NCBI GenBank assembly: GCA_012964435.1
Contig: DTTX01000057.1
Span: 1 to 64,000, forward strand
Length of the DNA stretch: 64,000 nt
Source: Mesonia sp.
GTDB lineage: Bacteria; Bacteroidota; Bacteroidia; Flavobacteriales; Flavobacteriaceae
Reading direction: 5' to 3'
The notes beneath the pieces are model-generated. The model did no database searches, had not been told where the DNA came from, and worked only from the letters and a program-made list of their open reading frames with translations. Of the stretch, positions 2,577 to 21,213 are shown one piece after another. Numbering within the stretch: position 1 is the first letter of the stretch; each line of letters begins with the position of its first letter. A program made the position numbers and the translations under genes.

Positions 2577-2621
2577 CAAATGTAGTTTTTAAGAAAAAGG
2601 CTTCCATCCTGTAGTGTACTG
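2577..2621 (-). promoter_or_regulatory. Promoter with shared locus motif, for the aldolase/dehydrogenase gene
   Basis: On the coding (minus) strand the motif CAGTACACTACAGGAT (2621-2606) is followed after exactly 21 bp by TACATTTG (2584-2577), a perfect Bacteroidota -7 element. The start codon is 30 bp further on. The same motif, orientation and 21-bp spacing recur in three other promoters of this locus. No TTTG box is seen at -33; the motif sits there instead. The site also lies 113 bp upstream of the divergent GntR gene. Activator binding is inferred. Confidence 0.75.
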
Positions 2622-2734
2622 CTGTTAAGTTTTGAAATAATAAATTCAATATAGAAATTAATCATATTAATTATTTACTTTTACTGAAAATTCGGTACTA
2701 AATTTACTAATTTTCTAAATAAGCCCTTTTTAAA

Positions 2735-3781
2735 ATGTCCCAGATTCTCAATATCGAAATTAATAGTCAGTCTCGTATTCCTAAATACAAGCAAATTGTC
2801 GACTCTGTGATTAACGATATTTCTAAAGGAAATCTACAGGTTGGCGAAAAAATACCTTCGATTAACGAATTGAGTGAATACCTTTTACTCTCTAGAGACA
2901 CTGTAGAAAAAGCTTACAAACTTTTAAAAGAGAAAAAAATAATTGTTTCGGTTAAAGGCAAAGGTTATTACACCGCCAAAACCGATCTAATTTCTAAAGT
3001 AAATGTTTTTTTCTTGGTGAATAAACCAAGTACTTATAAAATGATGATTTACAATTCTTTTGTAAATACCATTGGAGTAAACGGGCACGTAAACTTATTT
3101 ATCTACCATTGTGATGAAATATTATTTAAACGATCACTAGAAAGAAACATTGGCGCTTACGATTATTATGTAATTATGCCTCATTTTCGTGATGAAAACT
3201 CTAATCACGTGAGTTATACCGATGAAGTTTTAAAGTTGATGGAGCATATCCCAAAAGATCAACTTATTTTATTAGATAACACCAAACCTCATATTAAAGG
3301 AGATTATGGTTCGATCTATCAAGATTTTCAAAAAGATATTTATAATGCTTTACAAGAGGGAATAGAAAAAATAAAAAAGTACGATAAAATCATCTTAGTC
3401 TATCCTCGTAAATCGGTAAACCCTTATCCTCGCCGAATTCTTCACGGTTTTAAACAATTTTGCATCGAGAATGATTTTGATTTTGAAATCTTAGATGAAA
3501 TTTATGATGATATGGAATTGCAAAGCAAAGATGTTTATGTCACCATACAAGAGCGAGATCTTGTGAATTTGGTTCGACAAGTACGTGCTAAAAATCTAGA
3601 CTTAGGAAAAGATATTGGTATTATCTCTTACAATGAAACTCCGCTTAAAGAACTTTTAGGCATCACCGTGATTAGTACCGATTTTAAAGCTATGGGAGAA
3701 TCTGCTGCTTATATGGTATTAAAAAATAAAAAAGAGAAAGTAAAAAACGTATTTAAGTACATTGAACGTAATTCACTTTAA
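2735..3781 (+). CDS. GntR-family regulator with sugar-binding (PBP1-like) C-terminal domain
   Basis: Transcription factor with an N-terminal GntR winged helix (about residues 10-80, including GEKIPSINELSEYLLLSRDT, where the recognition helix follows) and a C-terminal domain of about 250 residues resembling the LacI/periplasmic-binding effector fold (IGIISYNETP, then TDFKAMGESAAYMVL near the end). This layout is typical of Bacteroidota sugar-responsive GntR regulators. It is divergent from the rhamnose aldolase gene and precedes the esterase operon by 75 bp, so it is the best local candidate for reading the shared promoter motif, with rhamnose or a catabolic intermediate as effector. The family is sure; the effector and the target sites are inferred. 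It reads from an ATG with no clear Shine-Dalgarno sequence, as is usual in this phylum. Confidence 0.9.
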   Translation: MSQILNIEINSQSRIPKYKQIVDSVINDISKGNLQVGEKIPSINELSEYLLLSRDTVEKAYKLLKEKKIIVSVKGKGYYTAKTDLISKVNVFFLVNKPSTYKMMIYNSFVNTIGVNGHVNLFIYHCDEILFKRSLERNIGAYDYYVIMPHFRDENSNHVSYTDEVLKLMEHIPKDQLILLDNTKPHIKGDYGSIYQDFQKDIYNALQEGIEKIKKYDKIILVYPRKSVNPYPRRILHGFKQFCIENDFDFEILDEIYDDMELQSKDVYVTIQERDLVNLVRQVRAKNLDLGKDIGIISYNETPLKELLGITVISTDFKAMGESAAYMVLKNKKEKVKNVFKYIERNSL

Positions 3782-3788
3782 GTTCAAT

Positions 3789-3833
3789 CATCACAGTACA
3801 GGATACCTAAGCATTTAAAGCCTTCTATCTTTA
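3789..3833 (+). promoter_or_regulatory. Promoter with shared locus motif, for the esterase/GH2 operon
   Basis: The motif CATCACAGTACAGGAT (3789-3804) is followed after exactly 21 bp by TATCTTTA (3826-3833), a near-consensus -7 element. The esterase ATG lies 24 bp downstream at 3857. It is the most divergent of the four motif copies (differences at its 5' end), but spacing and orientation are identical. It implies that the esterase operon has its own regulated promoter and does not depend on read-through from the GntR gene. Confidence 0.72.
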
Positions 3834-3856
3834 ATGCTGAATATTAAAATTCAGTT

Positions 3857-5389
3857 ATGAGATTACAGCAGAAGCACAGCTTCTTACTAGCTATAGGTTT
3901 ACTATTTCTCCAATTATCGGTTCAAGCACAACTAAAACTTCCCGCTTTGGTGGGTGATCATATGGTTTTGCAACAAGATACCGAGGTTAAGCTTTGGGGT
4001 TGGGCTTCTCCTTCTGAAGAAATCACCATTACCACCGATTGGCTACCAAAACCTATCACCATTTTTTCTGATGGATATGGAAATTGGAAAACCACGATTA
4101 AAACGCTAAAAGCCGATCACCAAAAACATCAAATCACTTTAGAAGGTAATAACAAAATAGAACTAAAAGACATTTTATTTGGTGAAGTTTGGTTATGCTC
4201 CGGACAATCGAACATGTTTTTTCCGGTAGGCAAACAAGAAAACACTTGGAAAACTGGCGTAATCAATTATCAGGAAGAAATAAAAAATGCTACGGAAAAT
4301 GAAATTCGTTTATTTACGGTGGGATTAGCAGCTTCTCAAACTCCAGAAAATGATGTTAAAGGTTATTGGCAAGTAACTTCACCAGAAAATGTTTACAATT
4401 TTTCTGGGATAGCGTATTTCTTCGGAAAAAATCTTTATAAAAATCTAAATGTCCCTATCGGACTTATTTCTTCATCTTGGGGAGGCACGCGCGCTGAAGC
4501 TTGGACTTCTCAAGAAGTTTTAGAAAACAACCCTGATTACCTTCCTATTTTAGAACGCTTTACCGAAAAACAAATTTCTTATTACAACAAATTACAACAC
4601 TATTATCAAGAGAAGAAAAAAAGTCAAGGAGATTCTACAAAATTAACTTTAGAGAAACCAAAATACGGCGAATTAAATAAAGATCCATACGTATTGTACA
4701 ATGCGATGTTACATCCATTAATTAATTATACCATCAAAGGAGTTACTTGGTACCAAGGCGAAAGTAATGCTCAACGCGCCTATCAATACCGAACATTATT
4801 TCCCGATATGATCCAGAATTGGCGAGAAGATTGGCAACAAGAAAATCTCCCTTTTTATTTTGTACAAATTGCTCCACATCACAGTCAAAATCCTGAAATT
4901 CGTGAAGCTCAACTTATGGCTTACCGTTTGGTAGATCATACCGGAATGGTGGTAACTACCGATATCGGGAATCCTAAAAATATTCATCCTGAAAATAAAC
5001 AAGAAGTAGGCCGCCGTTTAGCACTTTGGGCGCGTTCAAAAACCTATGGAGAAAAAAACATTGAATATTCAGGACCACTTTATAGAGACTTTAAAGTGAA
5101 AAGAAACAAGATTCAGATCTATCTTGATTTTGCTGAAAACGGATTGCAGAAAAAGGGAAAACAACTCACCCATTTTGAAATTGCCGGTGAAGATCAAAAA
5201 TTCTATCCTGCCCAAGCGAAAATAAAAGGGAATACGGTAATTGTTTCTTCTGCTGAAGTTAAAAAGCCGGTAGCAGTTCGCTTTGGTTGGAGTAAATCTC
5301 CTGAACCCAATTTATTCAATACTTCCGGATTACCTGCTTCGCCATTTCGCACCGATGATTGGCCGGGAGAAACCTATGAAAAGTTTTAA
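3857..5389 (+). CDS. Secreted sialate-O-acetylesterase-like (SASA) carbohydrate esterase
   Basis: Exported SGNH-type esterase that should remove O-acetyl groups from a glycan, here probably the acetylated polymer handled by this locus rather than sialic acid. A signal peptide (about 1-24, ending VQAQ) is followed by the SASA fold: GQSN at 116-119 with the nucleophile Ser118, SSSWGGTRAEAW at 205-216, WYQGESNA at 298-305, and Asp369/His377 in TTDIGNPKNIHPE. All blocks look intact, and 510 residues is within the family range. It is the first gene of an operon with the CE12 esterase (3 bp apart) and the GH2 enzyme, driven by the motif-bearing promoter just upstream. The family is confident; the substrate is inferred from neighbours. 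Confidence 0.88.
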   Translation: MRLQQKHSFLLAIGLLFLQLSVQAQLKLPALVGDHMVLQQDTEVKLWGWASPSEEITITTDWLPKPITIFSDGYGNWKTTIKTLKADHQKHQITLEGNNKIELKDILFGEVWLCSGQSNMFFPVGKQENTWKTGVINYQEEIKNATENEIRLFTVGLAASQTPENDVKGYWQVTSPENVYNFSGIAYFFGKNLYKNLNVPIGLISSSWGGTRAEAWTSQEVLENNPDYLPILERFTEKQISYYNKLQHYYQEKKKSQGDSTKLTLEKPKYGELNKDPYVLYNAMLHPLINYTIKGVTWYQGESNAQRAYQYRTLFPDMIQNWREDWQQENLPFYFVQIAPHHSQNPEIREAQLMAYRLVDHTGMVVTTDIGNPKNIHPENKQEVGRRLALWARSKTYGEKNIEYSGPLYRDFKVKRNKIQIYLDFAENGLQKKGKQLTHFEIAGEDQKFYPAQAKIKGNTVIVSSAEVKKPVAVRFGWSKSPEPNLFNTSGLPASPFRTDDWPGETYEKF

Positions 5390-5392
5390 AAG

Positions 5393-6664
5393 ATGAAAAA
5401 AATTCTTTTTATCACCTTATATTTCTGCTTTGGTTTGGGCGTATTTGCTCAACATTCACAGATCTATGAATTCGGAAAAAGTAAAAACATTTCAACTTCA
5501 ATAGAGTTTTCTGAAGATATTGGCTATGGTTTCGATTTTAATTCGGAATCTCAGGTAAAGTTCGAAAAACAAGGTTTTGTTGCCGATACCTCGGTTTATT
5601 TTTCAGTAAAAGTTCCGGAAGGAAATTATAAAATAGACGTGGTTTTGGGTGGCGAAAATGCTTCTGAAACAACCATAAAAGCCGAATCTCGAAGATTGAT
5701 GCTGGCGCAGGAAAAAGTCGATGCGCATCAGACCAAAACATTCAGTTTTAATGTGCATTTACATCATCAGGAAATCGCTAATACTTCAGAAAAAGTCAAT
5801 TTAAAACCACGAGAATTAAATGTTTTAGATTGGGATAAAAAATTAACATTAGAATTTCTTGGAAACCTGGCGGTTCAGCAAATAACAATTACTCCTGCAG
5901 ACCATTTAACGACAATATTTTTGGCGGGAGATTCTACGGTGACCAATCAGGATTTAGAGCCCTGGGCTTCCTGGGGACAATTTTTACCGCTGTATGTCAA
6001 TCAAGATGCAGTAGTTGCTAATTATGCGGCTTCCGGAGCTTCTCTATCATCGTTTAAAGCTCGAAAGCGATTTGAAAAAATCTTGTCTTTGCTAAAAAAA
6101 AATGATTATCTAATTATCGAATTTGGGCATAACGACGAGAAAATTAAAGGTGAAGGCAATGGCGCATACGGTTTGTACACTAAGCTTTTAACCGAATTTA
6201 TCGAAGCTGCCCGAGCCAAAGGATGTATTCCTATTTTGGCGACTCCAACGCAACGAAGAGCCTTTAAAGATGGAAAACTACAGCCTACTCACGGTGATTT
6301 TCCGGATGCAATGCGAAAGGTTGCTGAAGAAATGAAAGTTCCGCTAATCGATATTACCAAGGCGACCACCAAAATGTACGAAACTTGGGGAGATGAAATT
6401 TCCAGAAAAGCTTTTGTGCAATATCCCGCAAATACTTTCCCGGGACAAACCGAAAAATTAGAAGATAACACGCATATCAGCAATTTTGGAGCTAATGAGA
6501 TTTGCCTCGCATTTATGCAGGAAATTAAAGAGAAAAATGTGTCGCTTCAAGACTGTTTTAAAACCAATTTACCAGAATACGATCCTAAAAAACCTAATCA
6601 ACTTTCTAGCTGGACGGTTCCTAGAAGTCCGCGTTTTGAAAGCATAAAACCTTACGGAAATTAA
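5393..6664 (+). CDS. Secreted rhamnogalacturonan acetylesterase-like protein (CE12, SGNH fold)
   Basis: Predicted to deacetylate galacturonic acid residues of rhamnogalacturonan outside the cytoplasm. It has a signal peptide (1-20, ending FAQ), an N-terminal beta-rich region (about 21-165) that may be a carbohydrate-binding module, and a C-terminal SGNH hydrolase domain with GDSTV (179-183), GHND (245-248) and Asp358/His361 in EDNTH. The catalytic residues are complete. It starts 3 bp after the SASA esterase stop and ends 6 bp before the GH2 gene, so the three are surely co-transcribed. Two distinct esterases plus the double CE12 lipoprotein at 9805-11319 mean four esterase domains in this locus, which suggests a heavily acetylated substrate. 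Confidence 0.88.
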   Translation: MKKILFITLYFCFGLGVFAQHSQIYEFGKSKNISTSIEFSEDIGYGFDFNSESQVKFEKQGFVADTSVYFSVKVPEGNYKIDVVLGGENASETTIKAESRRLMLAQEKVDAHQTKTFSFNVHLHHQEIANTSEKVNLKPRELNVLDWDKKLTLEFLGNLAVQQITITPADHLTTIFLAGDSTVTNQDLEPWASWGQFLPLYVNQDAVVANYAASGASLSSFKARKRFEKILSLLKKNDYLIIEFGHNDEKIKGEGNGAYGLYTKLLTEFIEAARAKGCIPILATPTQRRAFKDGKLQPTHGDFPDAMRKVAEEMKVPLIDITKATTKMYETWGDEISRKAFVQYPANTFPGQTEKLEDNTHISNFGANEICLAFMQEIKEKNVSLQDCFKTNLPEYDPKKPNQLSSWTVPRSPRFESIKPYGN

Positions 6665-6670
6665 ACAACA

Positions 6671-9526
6671 ATGATCAAACTAAAACTTACTTTCTTTCTC
6701 TGCTGTTCTTCGTTTCTTCTGAAGATAAACGCTCAGGAAACTGAAAAAATAATGCTTTCAGGTCCCGATTTTGAGCATCAAAAAGAATGGGATTTTAAAG
6801 TGACCGACGGACAAAATTCAGGCGAATGGACTAAAATCGGAGTGCCGTCGCAATGGGAAACCGAAGGTTTTGGAACTTACACCTATGGGCGTTGGTACAA
6901 AGAATTGAATCAGGAAGAACCCAGCAAAGAAGAAGGTTTTTATAAATATGAATTTGAAGTTCCGCAGGAATATGAAGATCAACAAGTGATCATCAATTTT
7001 GGTGGTGCGATGACTGATACTGAAGTAAAAATCAACGGAAAACTGGCCGGCGAAAAACATCAGGGTGGTTTTTATGAATTCAGCTACGATATTTCAGATT
7101 TGATCAATGAGGACGAAAAAAATCTACTGGAAGTTCACGTTTGGAAACATTCAGAAAATCATAATGTAAATAGAGCGGAGCGTTATGCCGATTGGTGGTT
7201 GTTTGGCGGAATTTATCGCCCGGTTTGGCTAAGTATTTTACCAAAAACTAATATCAAACACGTAGCCATTGATGCAAAAGCAGACGGAAATTTGACGGCC
7301 GATTTAGAATTTGAAAATCTTACTAAAAATACAGAAATTGAAATTTCACTAATGGCAGATGGCGCTTCGTCTTCAAGCTTCAAAAAAATCACAAAAGAGC
7401 TCGATAAAAAAGCTGAAAAACAACGAATTTCAGTTCAGTTTGAAAATATTAATCCGTGGAATCCGGAAGAACCTAATTTGTATTGGGTACAATTCGATTT
7501 AAAGAAAAACGGAGAAGTTTTACATTCTATCAAAAAACGTATTGGATTCAGAACTTTAGAATTCAAAAAACGTGATGGTATTTACGTGAACGGCACCAAA
7601 ATAAAAATGAAAGGGATTAACCGCCATACTTTTTGGCCAGAATCTGGGCGAAGCACCAGCAAGCGCATCAGCTTGATGGATGTAAACCTCATCAAAGATA
7701 TGAATATGAATGCGGTACGTTTTCATTATCCGCCCGAAACACATTTTCTAGAAGTTTGTGATTCGTTAGGACTTTTTGTTTTAGATGAATTAGCTGGATG
7801 GCAGAATGGATATGACACCGAAACCGGACAAAAACTAGTGAAAGAAATGGTTGAGCGCGATGTGAATCATCCTTCAGTAATTATCTGGGATCAAGGAAAT
7901 GAAGGCGGCTGGAATTATGAATTGGATGACGATTTCGCAAAATACGATCCGCAAAACAGAATTGTAATTCATCCTTGGGCAGATTTCAACGGTTGGGATG
8001 CGCACCACTACCCTACTTTTCAAACGGGAGTGCACCGCTTTGGAAAAGGTGAAAATGTATTTTTTCCAACGGAAACCATGCACGGAACGTACGATAACGG
8101 AATCGGTTCCGGATTACGTGATTTTTGGGAACATTACAGTGAAAGTCCACTTTTTGCCGGTTTCTTTCTTTGGGTTTTTAGTGACGAAGCTGTCTTAAGA
8201 ACCGATTGGACAGGAGAACAAAAATATGATTCTAAAGGAAATTTAGCGCCCGACGGAGCTTTAGGACCTCACCGTGAAAAAGAAGGTAGTTTCTACGCTG
8301 TGAAAGAGGTTTGGGCGCCAATGCAGTTTCAACCTTTGCAAATTACACAGACTTTTAATGGTGAGTTCTTAGTTGAAAACACCTACTTATTCACCAATTT
8401 AAATGAGTGCAACATCACTTATAAAGTACAACAGGCGCCTAAGAATTTCTTGTATGTAAATGCTGAAGTACAAAACATTTATAAAGGAGATTTTGAAGTT
8501 TCAGACATTCAACCAGGTGAAACGCGTAAGTTGAAAATGCCTGTAAAAGACAATTTCTTTGAAGGTGATTGGGTTGAAATTACCGCTAACGACAAGCACG
8601 GAAGAGAAATTTATACCTGGACGTGGAAAATTCACCACGCAGATGAGTTTGCTGCAAAATTCATTCAAAAAAATAATGGAGAAAAAGCTAGCGCCACAGA
8701 CAATGGAACTTCAGTTGTTTTAAATGGCGAAAACGTAAGTGTAACGCTCGATAAAAAGACAGGTGAAATTACTAAAATCACCAACGCCAAAGGTGAAATG
8801 CCATTTGTAAACGGTCCTCGCCCCATTGGGATGCAAGCCGAAGTAGATAAAATTGAAATCAAAAACAACAAAGAAAATGCGGTAGCTACCGTTTTTTACA
8901 ATGGTGGAATCGATCATATCAAATGGACCATCACCAACGACGGAAGAATACATATGGAAGCGATTATGCTGAAAAACGCCGGCCGCAACAGTGGTTTTGA
9001 TGGTGCATTTTTCCAGGGAGAAATTAGCAAATTCGGACTTACTTTTGACTTCCCGGAAGAGATTGTTGAAGGTTTCAAATGGTTTGGAAAAGGTCCGTAC
9101 CGCGTTTGGAAAAACCGTTTGGACGGAGTAGAATACAACGTTTGGGACAAAGATTACAACAACACCATTACAGGTAAAAGTTTTGAAAATCTCATCTATC
9201 CAGAATTTAAAGGATACCACGCGAATTTCATTGCTGGAAAACTAGAAGCAAAAGACAAAACTTTTAGAATTTTCAGTGAATCAGATCAGTTATTCTTGCG
9301 CTTATTTACGCCAGACGAACCTAAAAATGTAGTCTCTAAAGCAAAAGCATATCCTAGTTTCCCTGAAGGAAATATTTCATTTATGTACGAAATTCCGGGA
9401 ATGCACGCTTTCAAACCGCTTTCACAACAAGGACCAAGCAGTCAGCCTACCAACATCCGAATCAAAAGTGGTGATGATGGTATTGCTATGAAATTATGGT
9501 TTGACTTTAGAGATTTTGAAGAGTAG
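6671..9526 (+). CDS. Glycoside hydrolase family 2 protein (beta-galactosidase type)
   Basis: Exported glycosidase of 951 residues with a signal peptide (about 1-21), a GH2 sugar-binding jelly-roll domain (about 50-200; YADWWLFGGIYRPVW is typical), an Ig-like domain, the TIM barrel (about 300-560) and beta-sandwich C-terminal domains. The acid/base is probably Glu411 in WDQGNEGGWN. Glu468 in FFPTETM is the best nucleophile candidate. GH2 covers beta-galactosidases, beta-glucuronidases and others, and I cannot fix the specificity. In a rhamnogalacturonan-type locus, removal of beta-linked galactose or uronic acid side groups is plausible. It is the last gene of the three-gene operon; the 278 bp after it hold repeats. 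Confidence 0.88.
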   Translation: MIKLKLTFFLCCSSFLLKINAQETEKIMLSGPDFEHQKEWDFKVTDGQNSGEWTKIGVPSQWETEGFGTYTYGRWYKELNQEEPSKEEGFYKYEFEVPQEYEDQQVIINFGGAMTDTEVKINGKLAGEKHQGGFYEFSYDISDLINEDEKNLLEVHVWKHSENHNVNRAERYADWWLFGGIYRPVWLSILPKTNIKHVAIDAKADGNLTADLEFENLTKNTEIEISLMADGASSSSFKKITKELDKKAEKQRISVQFENINPWNPEEPNLYWVQFDLKKNGEVLHSIKKRIGFRTLEFKKRDGIYVNGTKIKMKGINRHTFWPESGRSTSKRISLMDVNLIKDMNMNAVRFHYPPETHFLEVCDSLGLFVLDELAGWQNGYDTETGQKLVKEMVERDVNHPSVIIWDQGNEGGWNYELDDDFAKYDPQNRIVIHPWADFNGWDAHHYPTFQTGVHRFGKGENVFFPTETMHGTYDNGIGSGLRDFWEHYSESPLFAGFFLWVFSDEAVLRTDWTGEQKYDSKGNLAPDGALGPHREKEGSFYAVKEVWAPMQFQPLQITQTFNGEFLVENTYLFTNLNECNITYKVQQAPKNFLYVNAEVQNIYKGDFEVSDIQPGETRKLKMPVKDNFFEGDWVEITANDKHGREIYTWTWKIHHADEFAAKFIQKNNGEKASATDNGTSVVLNGENVSVTLDKKTGEITKITNAKGEMPFVNGPRPIGMQAEVDKIEIKNNKENAVATVFYNGGIDHIKWTITNDGRIHMEAIMLKNAGRNSGFDGAFFQGEISKFGLTFDFPEEIVEGFKWFGKGPYRVWKNRLDGVEYNVWDKDYNNTITGKSFENLIYPEFKGYHANFIAGKLEAKDKTFRIFSESDQLFLRLFTPDEPKNVVSKAKAYPSFPEGNISFMYEIPGMHAFKPLSQQGPSSQPTNIRIKSGDDGIAMKLWFDFRDFEE

Positions 9527-9558
9527 ATTTTAGTAGTGAGAAATTAAGAAACAAAATC

Positions 9559-9589
9559 GTCATCCTGGACTTGATCCGGGATCTCATCC
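9559..9589. repeat. Short intergenic repeat with internal dyad (GTCATCCTGG...GGGATCTCAT type)
   Basis: A 31-bp segment starting GTCATCCTGGACTTGATC and ending ATCTCATCC is a weak hairpin (ATCCTGGA/TCCGGGAT). This unit is a familiar intergenic repeat in flavobacteria. Related, more decayed forms lie near 11440 and 13439-13470. It is probably non-coding. Confidence 0.45.
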
Positions 9590-9694
9590 AAATAATAACG
9601 TTATCATATTTCGTATTAATCACGAGATGACAAAATGAAAAAATAAAAATAGTCTAGAGACAAAACTCTAGCATCTAAATAACATAAACCAACT

Positions 9695-9783
9695 GCGCAA
9701 GGGATGGCAGCGGCATCCTTTTTTTGCTTGAACAAGTGGCAAAAAAAGATACAGCGAACAGCCCGACCCCGACAGGGATGCGC
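9695..9783. repeat. Dispersed inverted-end repeat, copy A (short-loop form)
   Basis: About 89 bp with ends GCGCAAGGGATGGCAGCGGC and CCGACAGGGATGCGCC, and inner arms GGCATCCTTTTTTTGCTTG and AAAAAAAGATACAGCG. It matches copies at 50717-50828 and 62138-62239. This copy has almost no loop between the arms (AACAA inside CTTG/CAAG). It lies between the GH2 gene and the double esterase, 21 bp before the latter's ATG, so it could shape that gene's 5' leader. Confidence 0.7.
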
Positions 9784-9804
9784 CAAAAAAACATCAACTA
9801 AAAA

Positions 9805-11319: not shown

Positions 11320-11353
11320 GCTAGATGCCCTTGATATTTATACTTAATGCGTC

Positions 11354-11471
11354 ACACTGAACTTGATTAACTACGTTGAATCTTCAATTTCAGTGTTTCA
11401 TTCTTATGGATTAACATACTTAATCACTAAATGAGATTCTGGTCTAAACCCGGAATCTCATTTAGTGATTA
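11354..11471. repeat. Palindromic repeats between converging genes
   Basis: Two dyads fill the gap between the double esterase (+) and rhaM (-). One is ACACTGAA (11354-11361) with TTCAGTGT (11389-11396). The other is a perfect 19-bp inverted repeat, 11421-11439 with 11453-11471, around a 13-base loop related to the CTGG...CCGG repeat units. The second overlaps the last 3 bases of rhaM, its stop codon. Because the genes converge here, it may act as a bidirectional transcript end, though it lacks a good T-tract. Confidence 0.6.
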
Positions 11472-11783
11472 CTTCATAAAAAAAACTTCTTTTAGAGGAA
11501 TAACAACCGGAGAGCTATCCGGATTAACTTCCATCAAATCTGCCATATATTTCCACCATTTTTTCATGATCGGATGCTTAGGTAATTCAGCTTCAGTAGA
11601 GTTTTCTTTCAGTTTTTGAATAGCAAAAAGACTTAAACTTTCTTCGTCTAAAAAAATATGGTAGTCAGAAATACCACTATCTTGAAGTAACTTTTTTAAT
11701 TCCGCCCAAATTTCATCGTGACGCTTTTTATATTCAGCCTCACAGCCGGGTTTTAATTTCATTTTAAACGCAACTGTTTTCAT
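11469..11783 (-). CDS. rhaM: L-rhamnose mutarotase
   Basis: Small cytoplasmic enzyme of 104 residues that interconverts alpha- and beta-L-rhamnose so that rhamnose isomerase gets the right anomer. The family pattern is complete: an N-terminal KMKLKPG strand, YKKRHDEIWAEL (with the catalytic-region His), the central SDYHIF strand, and the C-terminal HPIMKKWWKYMADLM block with the paired Trp. The length is exactly that of RhaM proteins. It is transcribed leftward, with the sulfatase remnant just upstream in the same direction, in a stretch thick with intergenic repeats. No copy of the shared promoter motif is seen upstream. It is good evidence that free rhamnose is a real product of the locus. 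Confidence 0.93.
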   Translation of the reverse strand: MKTVAFKMKLKPGCEAEYKKRHDEIWAELKKLLQDSGISDYHIFLDEESLSLFAIQKLKENSTEAELPKHPIMKKWWKYMADLMEVNPDSSPVVIPLKEVFFMK

Positions 11784-11820
11784 TTTAATAATTGATTAAA
11801 TAAGAAGATATTAAATGAGC

Positions 11821-11897
11821 ACTTCGACAAGCTCAGTGTGACAATTTTGTAGCAATTAGAATACCAATACTTACAAGGTTTTGAAAACCTTGCAGGA
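11821..11897. repeat. Two short intergenic repeats upstream of rhaM
   Basis: ACTTCGACAAGCTCAGTGTG (from 11821) is a well-known flavobacterial intergenic unit. Relatives of it occupy the loops of the large repeat at 50717 and 62138. It is followed by a hairpin, CAAGGTTTTGAAAACCTTG (11874-11892), another common intergenic palindrome. No gene is present here. Confidence 0.5.
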
Positions 11898-11907
11898 GAA
11901 ATCGAAT

Positions 11908-13334: not shown

Positions 13335-13438
13335 CTTTTAAGAATATTAGGTAATATTTAAATTTTATTATTTGTCAAACTTACTTTAATAGTAGTACTA
13401 CCGAATTTGGTTCGAAATCATCTCATATTTGATAAGCG

Positions 13439-13470
13439 GAATGAGATGCTGAATCAAGTTTAGCATGACG
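13439..13470. repeat. Decayed intergenic repeat between GH31 and the sulfatase remnant
   Basis: The 264-bp gap 13335-13598 holds GGAATGAGATGCTGAATCAA followed by GTTTAGCATGACG, a decayed member of the CTGAA...TTCAG intergenic repeat family, and further on TCTCGATACGGTTTTTTCTT, also repeat-like. I see no gene and no copy of the shared promoter motif here, so the sulfatase was probably read through from GH31. Confidence 0.4.
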
Positions 13471-13598
13471 CTGTTTTTCTTACTACACATTATTTCAATC
13501 TGCTTCTCGATACGGTTTTTTCTTCGCTACTACTCCCCTAAAATCATTCGAAGCAACAGCTTTACGGTTTTATACATTCAAATAAATACTTTAAAAGA

Positions 13599-15992
13599 TT
13601 ACTTTGAAAAATTAATGCTACTTTTCTTCTTAGAATTAGTTGAAATACTTACCGTTGAAACATCTTCTTTCTGTTGAATCTTTAGAGATTTTCCGTTTGA
13701 TTTTGCTGCGGAATAATTTCCGTGTAAACGGATTTCATAAGTTCTATCGTCTAGTTTGTATTTCCCTTCAGCAGGTTGAATTGTTACTTCAACTTGATCA
13801 TCTTCAGCATTCAATTCAATAATCGTTAACGCATACTTTCCTTTTTGATAATCTAAACTTTTACCATCATCATCATAAAGTGAGAACGAAGAATTTCCGT
13901 CAGGATAAATATCTAATGTAATGGTTTCAATTTCTTTTTCACCCACATACTGCACAACTTCTTGCGAAGGAATAATGGCTCCACCTTTAATAAAAATCGG
14001 CATTTCTTCAATCGGGCTAAGTACGTTTAAGTATTGTTTTCCTTCAAATTGTTCACCTGTCCAGTAATTGGTCCAATTTCCTTCCGGTAAATAAACAGTT
14101 CGTGTTTTTGCACCTTTAGTAGTTACCGGGCAAATCATCATACTTTCCCCAAATAAATACTGATCGGTAATTTCATAAACATTAGAGTCGTCTTGATAAT
14201 CTAATACCAAAGCGCGCATTAACGGCATCCCGGTTTGGTGATTTTCATAAGCGGTACTGTAGATATAAGGAATTAAACTATAACGTAAATCGTCGTATTG
14301 TTTAAAGATGCGTTGCGCTTCTTCTCCGTAATTCCAAGGTTCTTTATAATTAGGATGCTCCATCCCAAATAAATGGGATACCGGACTAAAGAAACCAAAT
14401 TGGCACCATCTAATATATAATTCCGGATCTGCGACGTGCTCGAAACCGCCCATATTATGGCTCCAATACCCCACGCCAGACATCCCGATGTTAAGTCCCG
14501 CTTTGATTACCGGCTCAAAATATTGCCATTCACTTGGCCAATCTCCTGCCCAAATAAACGGATAACGCTGAATACCGGCATAACCTTCACGCGTGTGATT
14601 CATCCCACGCATTTTATTATATTCCTGATATTTCTCGTAAGGAGCTTTTGCATAAGCTACCGGAAACACGTTGTGTAAAGAAGTAATTTTTTGCCCTCGA
14701 GGACCGGTTTTATTGCTCTCGTTGGCTTTTCTACCAAAAGCACTTCCTTCATCTGTTTTAAAGAACATAGCACCCTGCTCTGCCACGCGCATCGCACAGT
14801 TTTCCCACCACCAGTTTACAGCATCTTCATCGAAAAAGTTGACAAATTCACCTGAATTATTGGGTTCTGGATAAACGTAACCGGCTTCTCTTGCTTCATC
14901 TAACAAGCGTAATTTTTTACCATTATCAAAACGCGGACGAACGTGTAAACCTACCGCGTTTAAATTTAGCGCATATAAACTATCAAACATTTTTTCGGTA
15001 TCGTGAAAGGTTTCTCTCCACTCAAAAGTAGTGGCTCCGCTCCCTCCATTTTCACCAAACATTCTCCACGTAGAATCTAAGTGAAGTACATCAATAGGAA
15101 TTTGATATTGTCTAAATTTCTCGACTAAAGCCACCGGATAATTAGCCGAAGTTTCTTCTTCGTGTCCCCAGGTTCCTCCGCTATAAGTTCCGACGTGTAA
15201 TCCCATCGCAAATTTAGGAAGCATTGGTGATTTACCGGTGATGGAGGTGTAACCATCTAAGATTTTAGGAAAATTTGGTCCATAAATAAAATAGTAATCA
15301 AGTTCTTTATCTTCCGAAGAAAATGTATAAAATTTAGCATTCGATTTTCCCATATCCCAAGTAGAAGGGTAAGAAGTATGGTAGAAAATACCATAACCTT
15401 TAGTGCTCATAAAAAATGGTACCGGTGCATAATTAGCTTCTAAGACATTATATGCGCCGATAATATGAGGCTTTCCTAAACCGCGACCAACGTTTAAAGT
15501 TACTTCTTTACCGCGACGGTCTAGTACATCCATACGTTCGCCAAAACCGAAGAAATGCTCATCGGCTTGTAGTTTTTTGGTCGCGCCAAAAGTTTCTTTT
15601 GAAGACTCTTTTTTTGCAACAACATCGGCATTTAATAAGTTTCCTTTTTTATCGTAAATATGAATTTGAAACGGACTTTTATGAATTTCAACATTTAATT
15701 GATTGGTTTGAAAGCTTAATTTTTCGGAAGTTTCGTTTTGCTGAACTTCTACCTGATCCCAATTATAGTTAGAAACCATATAAGGTTCGTTTTCTCTAAA
15801 ATCTCCGTTCCAAGAGGTTCTAAACCGAACGATAGAAGAAGTACAGAATTCAACTTTCACATCGGCTTCTGAGGTTTTCAAATGAAAGGTATTGTTCTTT
15901 TCTTCTTTTAAGTTCTGAAAGTCACCCATTTGCTGAGCAAAAAAACTAAATGATAGAAAGAAGCTAAAAAGTGTGAGTCCTAATTTTTTCAA
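13599..15992 (-). CDS. Glycoside hydrolase family 31 protein (alpha-xylosidase/alpha-glucosidase type)
   Basis: Exported glycosidase of 797 residues. It has a signal peptide (about 1-20, ending FFAQ), an N-terminal beta-sandwich (HFFGFGER near 146), the GH31 barrel (about 260-590) and C-terminal beta domains. The nucleophile is probably Asp414 in FFKTDEGSAFG and the acid/base Asp484 in WAGDWPSEW. The KTD form of the nucleophile block resembles alpha-xylosidase-like members more than classic alpha-glucosidases with WxDMNE, but the specificity is not fixed by sequence reading. It has its own promoter with the shared locus motif, located just after the terminator of the SusC/SusD transcript. The ATG at 15992 directly precedes the signal peptide. 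Confidence 0.9.
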   Translation of the reverse strand: MKKLGLTLFSFFLSFSFFAQQMGDFQNLKEEKNNTFHLKTSEADVKVEFCTSSIVRFRTSWNGDFRENEPYMVSNYNWDQVEVQQNETSEKLSFQTNQLNVEIHKSPFQIHIYDKKGNLLNADVVAKKESSKETFGATKKLQADEHFFGFGERMDVLDRRGKEVTLNVGRGLGKPHIIGAYNVLEANYAPVPFFMSTKGYGIFYHTSYPSTWDMGKSNAKFYTFSSEDKELDYYFIYGPNFPKILDGYTSITGKSPMLPKFAMGLHVGTYSGGTWGHEEETSANYPVALVEKFRQYQIPIDVLHLDSTWRMFGENGGSGATTFEWRETFHDTEKMFDSLYALNLNAVGLHVRPRFDNGKKLRLLDEAREAGYVYPEPNNSGEFVNFFDEDAVNWWWENCAMRVAEQGAMFFKTDEGSAFGRKANESNKTGPRGQKITSLHNVFPVAYAKAPYEKYQEYNKMRGMNHTREGYAGIQRYPFIWAGDWPSEWQYFEPVIKAGLNIGMSGVGYWSHNMGGFEHVADPELYIRWCQFGFFSPVSHLFGMEHPNYKEPWNYGEEAQRIFKQYDDLRYSLIPYIYSTAYENHQTGMPLMRALVLDYQDDSNVYEITDQYLFGESMMICPVTTKGAKTRTVYLPEGNWTNYWTGEQFEGKQYLNVLSPIEEMPIFIKGGAIIPSQEVVQYVGEKEIETITLDIYPDGNSSFSLYDDDGKSLDYQKGKYALTIIELNAEDDQVEVTIQPAEGKYKLDDRTYEIRLHGNYSAAKSNGKSLKIQQKEDVSTVSISTNSKKKSSINFSK

Positions 15993-16021
15993 ACTTAAGT
16001 ATTTTAAAATTTCATGGTCTG

Positions 16022-16066
16022 TAAATATAGGTTTTGTAAGCGCTAGAGGTATCCTGCACTATACTG
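16022..16066 (-). promoter_or_regulatory. Promoter with shared locus motif, for the GH31 gene
   Basis: On the minus strand the motif CAGTATAGTGCAGGAT (16066-16051) is followed after exactly 21 bp by TATATTTA (16029-16022), a near-consensus -7 element, with the GH31 ATG 29 bp beyond. The motif directly abuts the T-rich end of the susD terminator, so GH31 seems to be insulated from susCD yet placed under the same control. Confidence 0.75.
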
Positions 16067-16070
16067 TTTA

Positions 16071-16108
16071 AAAAAGAAAAACCCTGTTTTCTTTTGAAAA
16101 CAGGGTTT
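16071..16108 (-). terminator. Terminator downstream of susD
   Basis: Perfect 13-bp stem (16079-16091 with 16096-16108, AACCCTGTTTTC type) with a 4-base loop, followed on the minus strand by TTTTCTTTTTT. It starts 36 bp after the susD stop and ends the susCD transcript. Confidence 0.85.
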
Positions 16109-16143
16109 GCATAATTCAAATAAAAACAAACACTTACTTTTTA

Positions 16144-17631
16144 TTAATTGTATCCCGGGTTTTGTTCGTAAAGGCCTTCTTTAACCGTCATTTGATCTGT
16201 AGGAACGGGATAGATAATTTGATTTTCATCCATTGTATTCATACGATCTTGAACATCTTCTTCTGGTACCCAACTATTAATGGTTTCTATTACTTTGCCG
16301 GTTCTTATTAAATCGTACCAACGCTTACTTTCACAAGCAAACTCTCTTCTTTTTTCTTCTAATAATATATCTATATCAACTGAAGCGATTGGAGCTAAAC
16401 CAGCCCTATCACGTATCATATTTACATCATTTAAGATATCTGCTTGGCTGCCGCTACCTCCCATAAGAATCGCTTCTGCTTTCATCATCAAAATATCGGT
16501 ATATCTTATTACAGGATAATTTAATCCCCAATCAAAACGGTCTTGACCTGCAAATTGTAAATCTATGTATTTAACATAAAAAGGCGATGGCAGATAATTT
16601 CCGTTTTCATCTGTATAACCCTCTAAGATATTAAACTCTTCTCTTACATCATCTTCGGAATAATCTTCTATTAAATCTGTAGAAACCTGCTTTCTATCTT
16701 CTCCGTTAGGAAAACCTGCTTGATTTACAGTTAAATATCCGTTCGGAACAGTTAATGATTGATATTCTCCTCCTGCTCCTAAACCACCTGATATGTACTG
16801 GATATCAAAAATAATTTCAGGATTTCCTTCATTTTCATAAGAGAAAATAGAAGCATAATCATCTACAAATCCGAATGGGCCGTTATTAATGATATCATTG
16901 AATTGTGAAAGAGCATCACTATATTCACCGCTATTTAAGCCAGGTCCTTCAATGCTGTAGGTAGGTCCCGATCGAGTTAAATAAACTAATCCTAGCATCG
17001 CCTTTGCAGACCAAGAGGTTGCTTTACCTTCTTGAGAACCCGGATAGGATTCTGGAAGTAAATTTATAGCATCTTGAAGATCTGATAGAATTAATTGATA
17101 TACATCTTCTACTGAACTTCTACCAAGATCTAAAGTTTCTACAGGAGTGTATACTCTATCCATCAAAGGGACTTTTCCATAAGTTCTAACTAAATCAAAA
17201 TAAAAGAAAGCTCTTAAGAATTTTGCCTCTCCTTCTATCCTAGAAAGCGTAGTCTCATCTGAAATAACATTCCCATTAAGTTGATCTAAAACTGTATTTG
17301 CTCTAAATACACCTACAAAATTATTATCCCAATTATCGCTAACTTGCTCGTTAGTTGCTAAAGTTAAATCAAAGTTATTAATTTGCTCGTAAGGCCTAAC
17401 ACCAGTTTGTGTAACTGCGTACATATTATCTGACCTTACCTCTGAAAGATAAAATTGCATATTAGGATAGATATCTAACGTACTATATATCCCATTGACA
17501 GCATTTTCAAAATCTTCCTCACTACTATAGAAATTATTGCTTCCAATTTCTGATATTGGTGTTTGTTCTAATTCACTACTACAGGAAATTAAGTAGAAAG
17601 ACAGAATTGTTAATATATATATTTTTCTCAT
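16144..17631 (-). CDS. SusD/RagB-family outer-membrane glycan-binding lipoprotein
   Basis: Surface lipoprotein that captures oligosaccharides and hands them to its SusC partner. The lipobox is LISC with Cys17, followed by the usual SusD start (ELEQTPISEIGSNNFYSSEEDFENA). The alpha-helical TPR-like core includes GEAKFLRAFFYFDLVRTYGK near residue 135, and the C-terminal block has LEEKRREFACESKRWYDLIR and the NPGYN ending. At 495 residues it is full length. It lies 22 bp after susC on the same strand and is closed by a terminator. The ligand is not readable from sequence; by context it is an oligosaccharide of the rhamnose-containing polymer. Confidence 0.95.
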   Translation of the reverse strand: MRKIYILTILSFYLISCSSELEQTPISEIGSNNFYSSEEDFENAVNGIYSTLDIYPNMQFYLSEVRSDNMYAVTQTGVRPYEQINNFDLTLATNEQVSDNWDNNFVGVFRANTVLDQLNGNVISDETTLSRIEGEAKFLRAFFYFDLVRTYGKVPLMDRVYTPVETLDLGRSSVEDVYQLILSDLQDAINLLPESYPGSQEGKATSWSAKAMLGLVYLTRSGPTYSIEGPGLNSGEYSDALSQFNDIINNGPFGFVDDYASIFSYENEGNPEIIFDIQYISGGLGAGGEYQSLTVPNGYLTVNQAGFPNGEDRKQVSTDLIEDYSEDDVREEFNILEGYTDENGNYLPSPFYVKYIDLQFAGQDRFDWGLNYPVIRYTDILMMKAEAILMGGSGSQADILNDVNMIRDRAGLAPIASVDIDILLEEKRREFACESKRWYDLIRTGKVIETINSWVPEEDVQDRMNTMDENQIIYPVPTDQMTVKEGLYEQNPGYN

Positions 17632-17653
17632 AATTATGAACTTATTATTTAGA

Positions 17654-20600
17654 TTAAAAAGTAAAATTAAAACCAGTTACAATAGATCTAGATAACGGAA
17701 ATGCTCCATAATCATCTCCATTATTATTTACTGCTTCAGGATTAAAACCACCAACATATTTATCTCCACCGAACCAATTTTCGAATGTTACATAAACTCT
17801 TATTTTTTTAAGCACATTGCTATTAAGCATATCTGAAGTTAAGTTATAACCCAATGTTATATTTCTTATTCTCCAATAATCGGAAGGATATCTCCAATTT
17901 GTATTTTTGATTCTACCAAAGTTAGAATTCGCTTTACCATCTTCTCCATTACCAGGATTTTCAGGTGATCTCCATCTATCTCGATGAGTTCCCAAAACAT
18001 TTTCATTAAAGCCCATACCGGTTCTGTCTATTGCACGACCGAATGTTGAATATATGTTACCTCCCCATTGCCCTTGAACAAGAACGGAGAGATCGAAGTT
18101 TTTATATTCAAATGAATTTGTAACCCCCCAAACGTATTTTGGGTTAGGTTGCCCTGACAAAACTCTATCATCCGGACTTATAATACCATCACCATTAGCA
18201 TCTACATATTTGGGGTCTCCTACAGTTTGATTCCCATAAAGCGCAGCACCGCTATCTATATCTTCTTGAGATAAAATGCCATCTTGTTGAACTAAATATA
18301 ATGTATACATAGGTTGACCAACTTGTAAGATATTGTGTTGAATATCGTAAGCACCACCTAATATAGGTGAATTATCTGGGCCTAATTTTTTTACTTCATT
18401 TTCGTTATGACTAAAGTTTACATTTGTAGTCCACTTAAAATCTCCGGTAAAGTTTCTGGTGGTCAATTCTAATTCCCATCCTCTATTTTCTACTTCTCCA
18501 ATGTTGGTTAATGCACTAGAAAATCCAGATGCAGTAGGTACAGGAACATTTAAAAGTAGATCACGATTAGTCTTTATATAATAATCTAAAGAAGTAAAAA
18601 TTCTGTTATTAAAAATACCTATATCTGCTCCAAAATTATAAGTCTCTGCTTCCTCCCAGCTTAAATTTGGATTTGCTGCGTTAATTGGCACTTGACCTGT
18701 AGCAAGGTTTCCATTGTAGGAATAATTTGAGAAACCAATTCTTGAAATTGCTGCATAATCATCTGATACTCCTCTATTACCAGCTAATCCCCAACTGGCT
18801 CTAAATTTAAGAGCATCAAAGAAATCTGAATCTCTCATAAAGTCTTCTTTTGCTATATTCCACCCTATAGAGGCCGAAGGGAACACCCCCCACTTTGTAT
18901 CTTGACCAAAATTTGACGATCCATCTCGACGGATACTTGCTGTAAATAAATATTTTTGATCATAATCATACTGCAATCTTCCAAAATAGGAAACTAATAC
19001 CTTTTTAGTTTCAAAAGTATATGAGCCACTCGCGCTTATATTATTAGCAGCATTTAGTGTAGTAATTAAATCTGAACCAAAACCATCTGCAGCAGAAATA
19101 CGTTGATTATCAAACTTAAAAGTACTATAAGAAAATCCTCCTAAAGCATTAAAATGATGTTTTTCGTTAAATGAAACATCATAATTTATTGTGTTTTCAT
19201 TTGCAAAATTTTGCCTTTGATAAGAGCTAAAATACCCCGAAGCCTGTCTACTTCTGCTCACAAACGATGGTTTAAAATATTTATATTTAGACTCTGCATT
19301 ATCTAAATTTAGAGTCGATTTAATTTTTAGATTATCTAAGATTTCATACTCTCCATAAATAGTGGCTAGAGTTCTATATATTTTTTCTTCCCCTATTGTA
19401 TTCTGAACTGCCGCTACAGGACTAACATTACTTCCACCCCAAGCATAAGGTGTATTATCACCTACATTCAGATTTAAACCATCTTCTGATAGTGGAGCAA
19501 CTGATACCGCCCGATGCAACTCTTGGTCTTTTCCTTCAACCCCAGGATTATTTGAAATAGTATATGATGGTGCTATATTCACTCCAATACTTAATTTATC
19601 GCTCGCTTTAATATCAACATTAGCTCTTGCGGAGTATCTTTTATAATCTAATCCTATCGCTACTCCTTCTTGATCTAAATGCTCGCCAGAAATGTAATAA
19701 TTCACATTTTCTGTACCTCCTCTTGCAGATAATTGGTAACTTTTTACCATTCCTGTTCGAAATAGCTCATCCTGCCAATCAATTGATTCTAAATTTCCAT
19801 AACCAGGTTCAAACCATCTTTCATCTTTAATGAAGTTTCTATCAAAACCTCCTAAAATAGCTTCTCTTTCTGCTGCTGTTTGGCCAGCAGTTCTATTAGG
19901 ACCAGAATTCACCCAATTATAATCAATCATCTCGCTAGCTCTTTCTATCCATTCTTCAGTATTTAAAACATCTAATTTTTTCACTGTTTTATTAATACCT
20001 ACATAAGTATTGAAATTTATTTGTGGTTTACCAGATCCGCCAGATTTAGTTTTGATTATTACAACACCGTTTGAAGCTCGCGAACCATAAATAGCTGCTG
20101 CTGCTGCATCTTTTAGTACCTGAATAGATTCTATATCATTCGGATTTAAGTTTGATAACGGATTACCTGTAGCAAAACCACCGCTACTACTCTGACTAGA
20201 TGGCTCTAAAGGAAAACCATCAATTACATATAGTGGTTGATTACTTCCTGAAATAGAACCGGTTCCACGAATCTGGACAGAAAATCCAGCACCAGGCAAA
20301 CCACTTGTTTGTTTAACTCTAACACCTGCCATCTGCCCTACAAGTGCCTGATCGACTTTAGTTAATGGGCGTTCATCTAAATTATCGGTTTCCATAGTTG
20401 CGATTGCTGTTGTTATATCTGATCGCTTTTGGTTACCATACCCAACTAATACAACCTCATCTAGCTCTGCGCTATCCGATTCCATCACAACATCAAAAGA
20501 ACTTTGTGCTCCAACCTTTTTTTCAATCGTTTTCGTTCCTACGTAAGAAAAGATTAGAACATCTCCCTCTTCAGCTTGAATTGAAAAATTACCGTCAAAA

Positions 20601-20770
20601 TCACTTTGAGTTCCTTGTGTAGTTCCTTTAATTAAAATATTTACGCCTGGCAACGGAACATTATTTTCATCTTGCACCGTTCCAGTTACAGTTTTTTCTT
20701 GAGCCTGCATCGAAAACGAAATGATCGAAAGCAAACAGCAAAAAATAGTTTTTTGTAGAATGTGTTTCAT
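17654..20770 (-). CDS. SusC/RagA-family TonB-linked outer-membrane transporter
   Basis: TonB-dependent beta-barrel of 1038 residues that imports oligosaccharides with SusD. A signal peptide (about 1-23, ending MQAQ) is followed by a carboxypeptidase-regulatory-like domain (about 25-105, VTGTVQDENNVPLPGVNI), a TonB box and plug (about 110-245, with GSRASNGVVIIKTK) and the barrel, ending in the aromatic FNFTF. All parts are present and no N-terminal secretin/STN domain is seen, so it should not signal through an anti-sigma factor itself. Control is more likely through the motif in its promoter. It is the first gene of the susC-susD transcript. Confidence 0.96.
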   Translation of the reverse strand: MKHILQKTIFCCLLSIISFSMQAQEKTVTGTVQDENNVPLPGVNILIKGTTQGTQSDFDGNFSIQAEEGDVLIFSYVGTKTIEKKVGAQSSFDVVMESDSAELDEVVLVGYGNQKRSDITTAIATMETDNLDERPLTKVDQALVGQMAGVRVKQTSGLPGAGFSVQIRGTGSISGSNQPLYVIDGFPLEPSSQSSSGGFATGNPLSNLNPNDIESIQVLKDAAAAAIYGSRASNGVVIIKTKSGGSGKPQINFNTYVGINKTVKKLDVLNTEEWIERASEMIDYNWVNSGPNRTAGQTAAEREAILGGFDRNFIKDERWFEPGYGNLESIDWQDELFRTGMVKSYQLSARGGTENVNYYISGEHLDQEGVAIGLDYKRYSARANVDIKASDKLSIGVNIAPSYTISNNPGVEGKDQELHRAVSVAPLSEDGLNLNVGDNTPYAWGGSNVSPVAAVQNTIGEEKIYRTLATIYGEYEILDNLKIKSTLNLDNAESKYKYFKPSFVSRSRQASGYFSSYQRQNFANENTINYDVSFNEKHHFNALGGFSYSTFKFDNQRISAADGFGSDLITTLNAANNISASGSYTFETKKVLVSYFGRLQYDYDQKYLFTASIRRDGSSNFGQDTKWGVFPSASIGWNIAKEDFMRDSDFFDALKFRASWGLAGNRGVSDDYAAISRIGFSNYSYNGNLATGQVPINAANPNLSWEEAETYNFGADIGIFNNRIFTSLDYYIKTNRDLLLNVPVPTASGFSSALTNIGEVENRGWELELTTRNFTGDFKWTTNVNFSHNENEVKKLGPDNSPILGGAYDIQHNILQVGQPMYTLYLVQQDGILSQEDIDSGAALYGNQTVGDPKYVDANGDGIISPDDRVLSGQPNPKYVWGVTNSFEYKNFDLSVLVQGQWGGNIYSTFGRAIDRTGMGFNENVLGTHRDRWRSPENPGNGEDGKANSNFGRIKNTNWRYPSDYWRIRNITLGYNLTSDMLNSNVLKKIRVYVTFENWFGGDKYVGGFNPEAVNNNGDDYGAFPLSRSIVTGFNFTF

Positions 20771-20810
20771 ATTGCTAATTTGATTAAGTTATTCACAATT
20801 ATTTAACACT

Positions 20811-20855
20811 CAAATATATTTTTATTAATGTTGTTTAGTGTCCTGTACTGTACTG
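20811..20855 (-). promoter_or_regulatory. Promoter with shared locus motif, for susC-susD
   Basis: On the minus strand the motif CAGTACAGTACAGGAC (20855-20840) is followed after exactly 21 bp by TATATTTG (20818-20811), a perfect Bacteroidota -7 element, with the susC ATG 40 bp beyond. This copy extends into a longer dyad (TATCCTG...CAGGACA, 20839-20862), which suggests a dimeric binder. The rest of 20863-21083 is AT-rich with no gene or other signal that I can see. Confidence 0.78.
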
Positions 20856-21083: not shown

Positions 21084-21113
21084 AAAAAACCACGCTAATT
21101 AGCGTGGTTTTTT
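21084..21113 (-). terminator. Terminator downstream of tRNA-Arg
   Basis: A perfect 30-bp palindrome (AAAAAACCACGCTAA and its complement) gives a strong hairpin with A and T flanks, one base beyond the tRNA 3' end. It can work in both directions but fits the leftward tRNA transcript. Confidence 0.9.
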
Positions 21114-21114
21114 G

Positions 21115-21188
21115 TGACCCCGGCAGGATTCAAACCTGCAACCCTCAGAGCCGAAATCTGATGCGCTATTCAGTTGCGCCACGGGGCC
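21115..21188 (-). tRNA. tRNA-Arg (anticodon UCG)
   Basis: On the minus strand a 74-nt cloverleaf can be folded. The acceptor stem is GGCCCCG/CGGGGTC, with one G-U pair, and discriminator A. The D stem is GCGC/GCGC, the anticodon stem TCAGA/TCTGA with loop TTTCGGC, and the T stem GCAGG/CCTGC with loop TTTGAAT. The loop centre TCG reads codon CGA, so it is arginine. CCA is not encoded. The D-loop has GA where GG is usual. Confidence 0.96.
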
Positions 21189-21213
21189 TTTATTTGTGTA
21201 AGCTAGATTTTGA

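Follow-up and report, generated by a model that had tools for sequence, protein, structure and literature searches.

AraR of Bacillus subtilis joins a GntR DNA-binding domain to a LacI-like sensor, and is one of several described regulators with which the flavobacterial system reported here can be compared (statements from the literature refer, here and below, to the cited passages of each source). It is an arabinose-released repressor that acts on palindromes, with an operator consensus, At(T/A)tGTaCGTAcaa(A/T)T, built on GTAC (PMC4218819). Activators of the GabR/MocR type also use a GntR-type winged helix-turn-helix (wHTH) domain, often on direct repeats, but their sensor is aminotransferase-like and their repeats lie two or three helical turns apart (PMC5320631). 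RhaS and RhaR of Enterobacteria and RhaR of Bacteroides thetaiotaomicron are rhamnose-responsive activators of rha genes, with a RhaS half-site at the -35 region (PMC12858550, PMC3870299); they belong to the AraC family, whose repeats in Bacteroides, Bacillales and Enterococcus show a 21-bp periodicity (PMC3870299), and the rhamnose regulator of Bacteroides is an AraC-type RhaR (PMC3878776). FucR (BT1272) of Bacteroides, a GntR-family protein from Bacteroidota, controls a deoxy-sugar pathway, but the sugar is fucose and the target a single operon (PMC3878776). The DNA analysed here, positions 1 to 64,000 of contig DTTX01000057.1 of Mesonia sp. (assembly GCA_012964435.1; 64,000 nucleotides, hereafter the window), contains four similar promoters in a rhamnose and polysaccharide locus and a gene for a GntR-type regulator. 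This protein has the domain plan of AraR and a related DNA-binding domain (4egy), and the promoter element is likewise built on GTAC; unlike the operators of AraR, however, the element reads best as an 18-bp direct repeat with a 10-bp pitch, held at one fixed promoter position and associated with a rhamnose regulon, and unlike RhaS and RhaR the regulator is not an AraC-family protein. The regulon was undescribed among the matches listed in a search of open-licence PubMed Central, a scope outside which subscription papers and RegPrecise fall.

We propose, with a probability of about three in four for the proposal as a whole, that the four sites act as operators of a single L-rhamnose and rhamnose-polysaccharide regulon, that these tandem repeats are bound by the GntR-type regulator, and that they serve a rhamnose-responsive, class-II-like activation. 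A sequence-only reading of the window had pointed to four copies of a 16-bp motif, and all of them are present, on the strands given in Table 1, each followed at exactly 21 bp by a TAnnTTT[AG] box (TACATTTG, TATCTTTA, TATATTTA and TATATTTG). With up to three mismatches, the 16-mer CAGTACAGTACAGGAT matches the window at exactly these four sites where 0.13 are expected, and in 100 shuffles the count always stayed below four, in agreement with the earlier judgement that a chance origin is very unlikely. The full pattern put forward at that time held for three window sites (0.00 expected), while the fourth, CATCACAGTACAGGAT, is recovered only by a wider pattern. When the genome to which the window belongs (a draft of 3.05 Mb in 94 contigs, 90.5% complete) was scanned with CAKNAYASTRCAGGAY at up to one mismatch, the four window sites were found without mismatch and two further matches with one; both of the latter lack a box at 21 bp, and the patterns tried gave no further boxed site genome-wide. 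Since the assembly is incomplete, some sites may be missing.

The position and sequence of the 16-bp motif stand, but its extent does not: at 18 bp the conserved unit is two bases longer, and it is better read as a direct repeat of 8-bp halves with a pitch of 10 bp (one helical turn), CAGTAYAS-TA-CAGGATRS, in which TA is the 2-bp spacer. In the boxed sites of relatives the proximal half, CAGGATRS, is nearly invariant and the distal half, CAGTAYAS, is looser. Among 197 boxed sites, a direct repeat of period 10 gave the highest symmetry score (mean excess 0.394), followed by period 5 (0.312) and the best palindrome (0.307). We had also considered a palindromic operator centred on GTACAGTAC but prefer the direct repeat, given the palindrome's lower score and the clear repeats in genome G319 and in the divergent clade B described below. 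A direct repeat has a direction and so fits the one-sided placement ahead of the box. A distant relative from another family (49-50% identity, with the glutamate discussed below as Glu58) shows the direct repeat clearly, with CAGGATAC-TA-CAGGATAG ahead of a RhaEW of 62% identity.

For a comparison of orthologous loci we used 80 loci that carry a GntR relative (67-97% identity); having been picked by GntR, they are by themselves no evidence of association. In the window and these loci together, the consensus has 127 matches at up to three mismatches, and the reversed pattern 10. Of the 127, 82 have a strict box exactly 21 bp away, and none has one at any other spacing between 17 and 25 bp. Sites occur in 73 of the 80 loci and boxed sites in 65; in 56 loci, Chryseobacterium and Epilithonimonas loci among them, RhaEW is the next gene after such a site, and in 54 of these TA..TTT follows at 21 bp. 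A larger set of 217 distinct sites was drawn from the loci and further genomes, keeping distinct 50-nt contexts and dropping sites less than 50 nt from a locus end. TA..[TA]T occurs at 21 bp in 197 of them, compared with 0-19 at each other spacing from 12 to 30 bp; the strict TA..TTT[AG] box is found at 21 bp in 116 of 217 and at most once at every other spacing from 5 to 44 bp. Several of the remaining 20 sites carry near-boxes such as TATACTTG at 21 bp. Upstream on the opposite strand, strict boxes formed no comparable peak, with at most 8 of 217 at any one distance. The pattern used for this set fixes several bases, whose conservation there is built in, but the letters match those of the 127 matches at up to three mismatches, which are free of that effect.

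The first genes behind boxed sites fall into 40 clusters, so the spacing is not explained by descent from a single ancestral promoter. Representatives of 30 clusters were scanned for protein families, two more were already known (RhaEW and SASA) and eight were left out. Among the scanned targets are GH78, GH106, RhaT, RhaM, a sulfatase fused to GH78, GH88, GH3, GH2, GH31 and GH43; further ones are an ulvan-lyase-type beta-trefoil protein, a GDSL esterase, a TonB-dependent transporter (SusC-like) and an MFS transporter, together with two DUF4861 proteins, another GntR and an extracytoplasmic function (ECF) sigma factor. Some hits have no obvious relation to rhamnose or glycans (FBPase, PhyH, a cytochrome c domain and DUF5722), and two representatives gave no family. 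Genes for rhamnose catabolism, transport and rhamnosidases are thus among the targets, as befits an L-rhamnose regulon, and the kinds of target, judged qualitatively, speak against the hits being no commoner near rhamnose or pectin genes than elsewhere. Conservation in relatives, the kinds of target and co-occurrence with the GntR gene together support the regulon predicted from the window alone. In one relative, CAGCACAGTACAGGAT sites precede the ECF sigma gene (L258:1929-2489), which suggests a regulatory cascade; they also precede unscanned genes of similar size (187, 200 and 187 aa) in L234, L242 and L264.

Co-occurrence was examined in a family sample of 249 genomes drawn evenly from 235 genera, using the 18-bp pattern at up to one mismatch and its reverse as control. 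The genome collections used overlap, and the counts were tallied by hand. The 52% identity threshold for GntR was chosen with the ranked hits in view: those just below it have at most 46%, and the two highest of these are second copies in genomes already counted. The pattern is present in 62 of the 249 genomes (control, 12), GntR at or above the threshold in 54 and RhaEW in 62. Of the 54 genomes with GntR, 52 carry the motif; of the 195 without it, 10 do, each with a single hit. Among RhaEW-bearing genomes the counts are 52 of 54 with GntR and 0 of 8 without (Fisher 1.3e-8, relatedness uncorrected in both comparisons). On inspection, the two GntR-positive misses, G191 and G210, have a weaker site ahead of RhaEW, followed at 21 bp by a box-like sequence. 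Nine of the ten lone hits in GntR-less genomes have one mismatch (G199 lies outside that count), and none of the four that were read has a box. A class-wide sample of 198 genomes gave GntR at E 1e-80 in 8, the pattern in 27 and the control pattern in 5; five of the eight GntR-positive genomes carry the pattern.

A second line of evidence comes from the recognition helix. Glu58 is present in 118 of 119 group A proteins (at least 50% identity), and group A genomes carry CAGGAT. Of the eight RhaEW genomes without a close GntR, G244 has a RhaEW fragment only, and the other seven have a divergent GntR of 41-45% identity; six of these proteins make up the clade B alignment, the seventh being that of G062. 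In four clade B proteins Glu58 is replaced by valine (SRDTVEKAY to SRDTIVRAY or SRDTVVKAY), and CAGAAC/T-type sites, five in total, stand at 21 bp in three of these four genomes. Where a clade B protein retains Glu58, as two do, the half-site at 21 bp is CAGGAT or CAGGAA. Over all clade B loci, TACAGAAC stands ahead of TA..[TA]T four times at 21 bp, against four times in total over the other spacings from 12 to 30 bp. The wHTH domain aligns by phmmer with AraR (4egy; residues 9-80 to 16-87, equal length, E 1.3e-07), in which Arg41 and Arg45 are named as recognition-helix residues (PMC4218819); provided that the construct has a 20-residue tag, we infer that Arg54 and Glu58 lie opposite these two. 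The divergently encoded GntR/Peripla_BP_3 regulator of the window is likely the binder of the motif, as had been surmised from the window, and both the co-occurrence and the matching change of recognition helix and half-site support this assignment. In five genomes (G200, G169, G107, G190 and G082) two neighbouring GntR genes, 53-61% identical to the query, lie near rhaEW.

In more distant GntR relatives (group C; L209-L228, e.g. L213:6307; about 34-40% identity), tandem operators of the ACTAGTAGGKACTAGTAGG type lie upstream of an open reading frame (ORF) of GntR size. Seven of the 11 promoters counted match the register of the rhamnose sites, with a distance of 38 from the ACTAGT start to the box, and the others have 29, 35, 36 and 39. 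A supposed contrast, with group C operators variably spaced, was dropped when this count gave 7 of 11 in one register. Somewhat short of even odds, we entertain the idea that a flavobacterial GntR/LacI-type subfamily consists of dedicated activators sharing one promoter design, in which a tandem repeat (8-bp halves, 10-bp pitch) replaces the -33 element in a fixed register and the half-site letters vary by member; CAGGAT would go with Glu58, CAGAAC with Val58 and CTAGTAGG with group C. If true, this design would let the specificity of rhamnose and other sugar regulons be read as a code, in a phylum for which few mechanisms of activation are known.

A centre at -41.5 is the classical position of a class II activator. 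When the sigma-A box, whose -7 element reads TAnnTTTG, is placed at -12 to -5 (PMC9723704), the 18-mer spans about -49 to -32 and ends 19 bp before the -7 box, and the 16-mer is centred at -41.5, a register kept by the 197 of 217 sites with a box at 21 bp. Each operator would sit in place of the -33 element ahead of a sigma-A -7 box. A GntR dimer may bind there with its two wHTH domains pointing the same way; the inducer, bound by GntR, would be L-rhamnose or a product close to it; and the protein would recruit sigma-A RNA polymerase to otherwise weak promoters as a class-II-like activator, with rhaEW, the esterase/GH2 genes, GH31 and susCD being switched on together. The sequence-only reading had left activator or repressor open. 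We infer an activator: given GntR as the binder, activation appears distinctly more probable than repression, because 40 downstream clusters keep the register to the base pair, with the site over the -33 region.

The same regulon could be run by GntR as a repressor released by rhamnose, in which case the operator would overlap the -33 region, CAGGATRS would double as a poor -33 element and the 21 bp would reflect the sigma -33/-7 spacing. GntR proteins are mostly repressors, the operator does cover the -33 position, and group C has its similar tandem operator, at the distances given above, before an ORF of the regulator's own size. Repression is also the mode of AraR (PMC4218819), the DNA-binding domain of which is weakly related to that of the window regulator. 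What makes repression unlikely in our view is the register kept to the base pair across 40 target clusters, along with the scarcity of an upstream TTG, which ends 17-21 nt before the box in 1 of 197 motif promoters and in 10 of 73 -7 boxes found elsewhere in these loci; this comparison is weak because the motif fixes some bases there and TTG reaches 5 in the 73 boxes at an unrelated distance. Far less probable is a regulator of AraC, LacI or DeoR type that is encoded elsewhere and binds the motif with GntR as a bystander. These are the types of the bacterial rhamnose regulators in print (PMC3870299), and the presence of GntR in 80 of 80 loci is no proof against another binder, as the loci were fetched by GntR; yet among genomes with RhaEW the motif tracks the GntR clade, the half-site shifts along with the GntR recognition helix, and no regulator was among the 10 ORF clusters scanned against Pfam (two had no family), out of a list of the 28 most widespread in the 80 loci. 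The least credible alternative is an ECF sigma factor, for which the motif would be the -35 element. Bacteroidota polysaccharide loci often use such factors, and a boxed site precedes an ECF sigma gene in the relative mentioned above, but a conserved 18-bp tandem repeat is too long for a -35 element. The alternative sigma factor that had been suggested as a possible cause is rejected because the downstream boxes are TAnnTTTG-like, that is, ordinary sigma-A -7 elements rather than -10 elements unlike those of sigma-A (PMC9723704).

Besides the prevalence of repressors among GntR proteins and the example of AraR, several observations weigh against our proposal of a GntR-activated rhamnose regulon. 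Although its regulator has Val58, L181 showed no CAGAAC/T-type site; G164 and G062 have no site directly ahead of RhaEW, and G062 none in the stretches read. In the class sample, three of the eight GntR-positive genomes (G384, G378 and G469) gave no pattern hit, nor a boxed site in the stretches examined, and the pattern turns up once or twice in 22 of 190 GntR-less genomes (control, 5 of 198), an excess for which our proposal does not account; a box at 21 bp was present in none of the 10 examined of those 22. The genome co-occurrence counts take no account of relatedness, and the direct-repeat score exceeds that of the palindrome centred on GTACAGTAC only moderately.

Flavobacteria are important degraders of seaweed and plant polymers, and the proposal would give them a predicted master regulator for the use of rhamnose and rhamnose polymers, with a search pattern specific enough for finding targets within a genome. 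It predicts an activator built from a usually repressing type of protein, and a single helix residue that sets the operator letters, with possible use in rhamnose-inducible expression.

Table 1. Predicted operators, -7 boxes and genes of the rhamnose and polysaccharide locus (window coordinates).
Feature	Position	Strand	Remark
Operator 1, CAGTACAC-TA-CAGGATGG (predicted)	2604..2621	-	upstream of rhaEW
-7 box TACATTTG, rhaEW promoter	2577..2584	-	
Operator 2, CATCACAG-TA-CAGGATAC (predicted)	3789..3806	+	upstream of esterase/GH2 genes
-7 box TATCTTTA, esterase promoter	3826..3833	+	
Operator 3, CAGTATAG-TG-CAGGATAC (predicted)	16049..16066	-	upstream of GH31, right after terminator-like hairpin
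-7 box TATATTTA, GH31 promoter	16022..16029	-	
Operator 4, CAGTACAG-TA-CAGGACAC (predicted)	20838..20855	-	upstream of susC/susD
-7 box TATATTTG, susC promoter	20811..20818	-	
rhaEW, bifunctional rhamnulose-1-phosphate aldolase / dehydrogenase	450..2546	-	TIGR02632, 955 bits, cut-off 568
GntR-type regulator, LacI-like sensor domain, proposed binder	2735..3781	+	GntR + Peripla_BP_3
SASA carbohydrate esterase	3857..5389	+	first gene downstream of operator 2
GDSL esterase, probably rhamnogalacturonan-acetylesterase-like	5393..6664	+	
GH2 beta-galactosidase-like protein	6671..9526	+	
rhaM, L-rhamnose mutarotase	11469..11783	-	same locus
GH31 glycosidase	13599..15992	-	first gene downstream of operator 3
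SusD-like lipoprotein	16144..17631	-	
SusC-like TonB-dependent transporter	17654..20770	-	first gene downstream of operator 4; label from the sequence-only reading and a relative

A regulator of this kind is also carried by the laboratory flavobacterium Galbibacter orientalis DSM 19592. The window regulator, whose closest named relatives are from Mesonia and Salegentibacter, has an N-terminal GntR wHTH domain (Pfam GntR, 5.7e-13, 48.8 bits, cut-off 27) and a C-terminal sugar-binding domain (Peripla_BP_3, 1e-06, 29.4 bits, cut-off 26.5). The locus also holds a second GDSL esterase and a sulfatase, and rhaM showed no site of its own in the window scan with the 16-mer at up to three mismatches. 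The 1038-aa SusC-like protein is labelled by analogy, the first gene of the SusC-type cluster in one relative having Plug and CarbopepD_reg_2 domains. In locus L036, rhaEW precedes genes for a TIM-barrel isomerase-like protein (putatively rhaI), an FGGY kinase and an FMN-dependent dehydrogenase, the clusters of which occur in 59, 59 and 55 of the 80 loci, respectively. Positions 1-450 of the window are the start of the contig, and in this genome the isomerase-like (rhaI) gene breaks off where another contig, C1, ends; because of this truncation, the window start is probably an assembly break within the rha cluster. Two further features were seen by eye, both on the minus strand: a terminator-like hairpin, AAACCCTGTTTTC...GAAAACAGGGTTTTT, at 16067-16105, directly before operator 3 and between susD and GH31, and, upstream of the susC promoter at 21110-21195, a tRNA-like sequence followed by a terminator-like hairpin.

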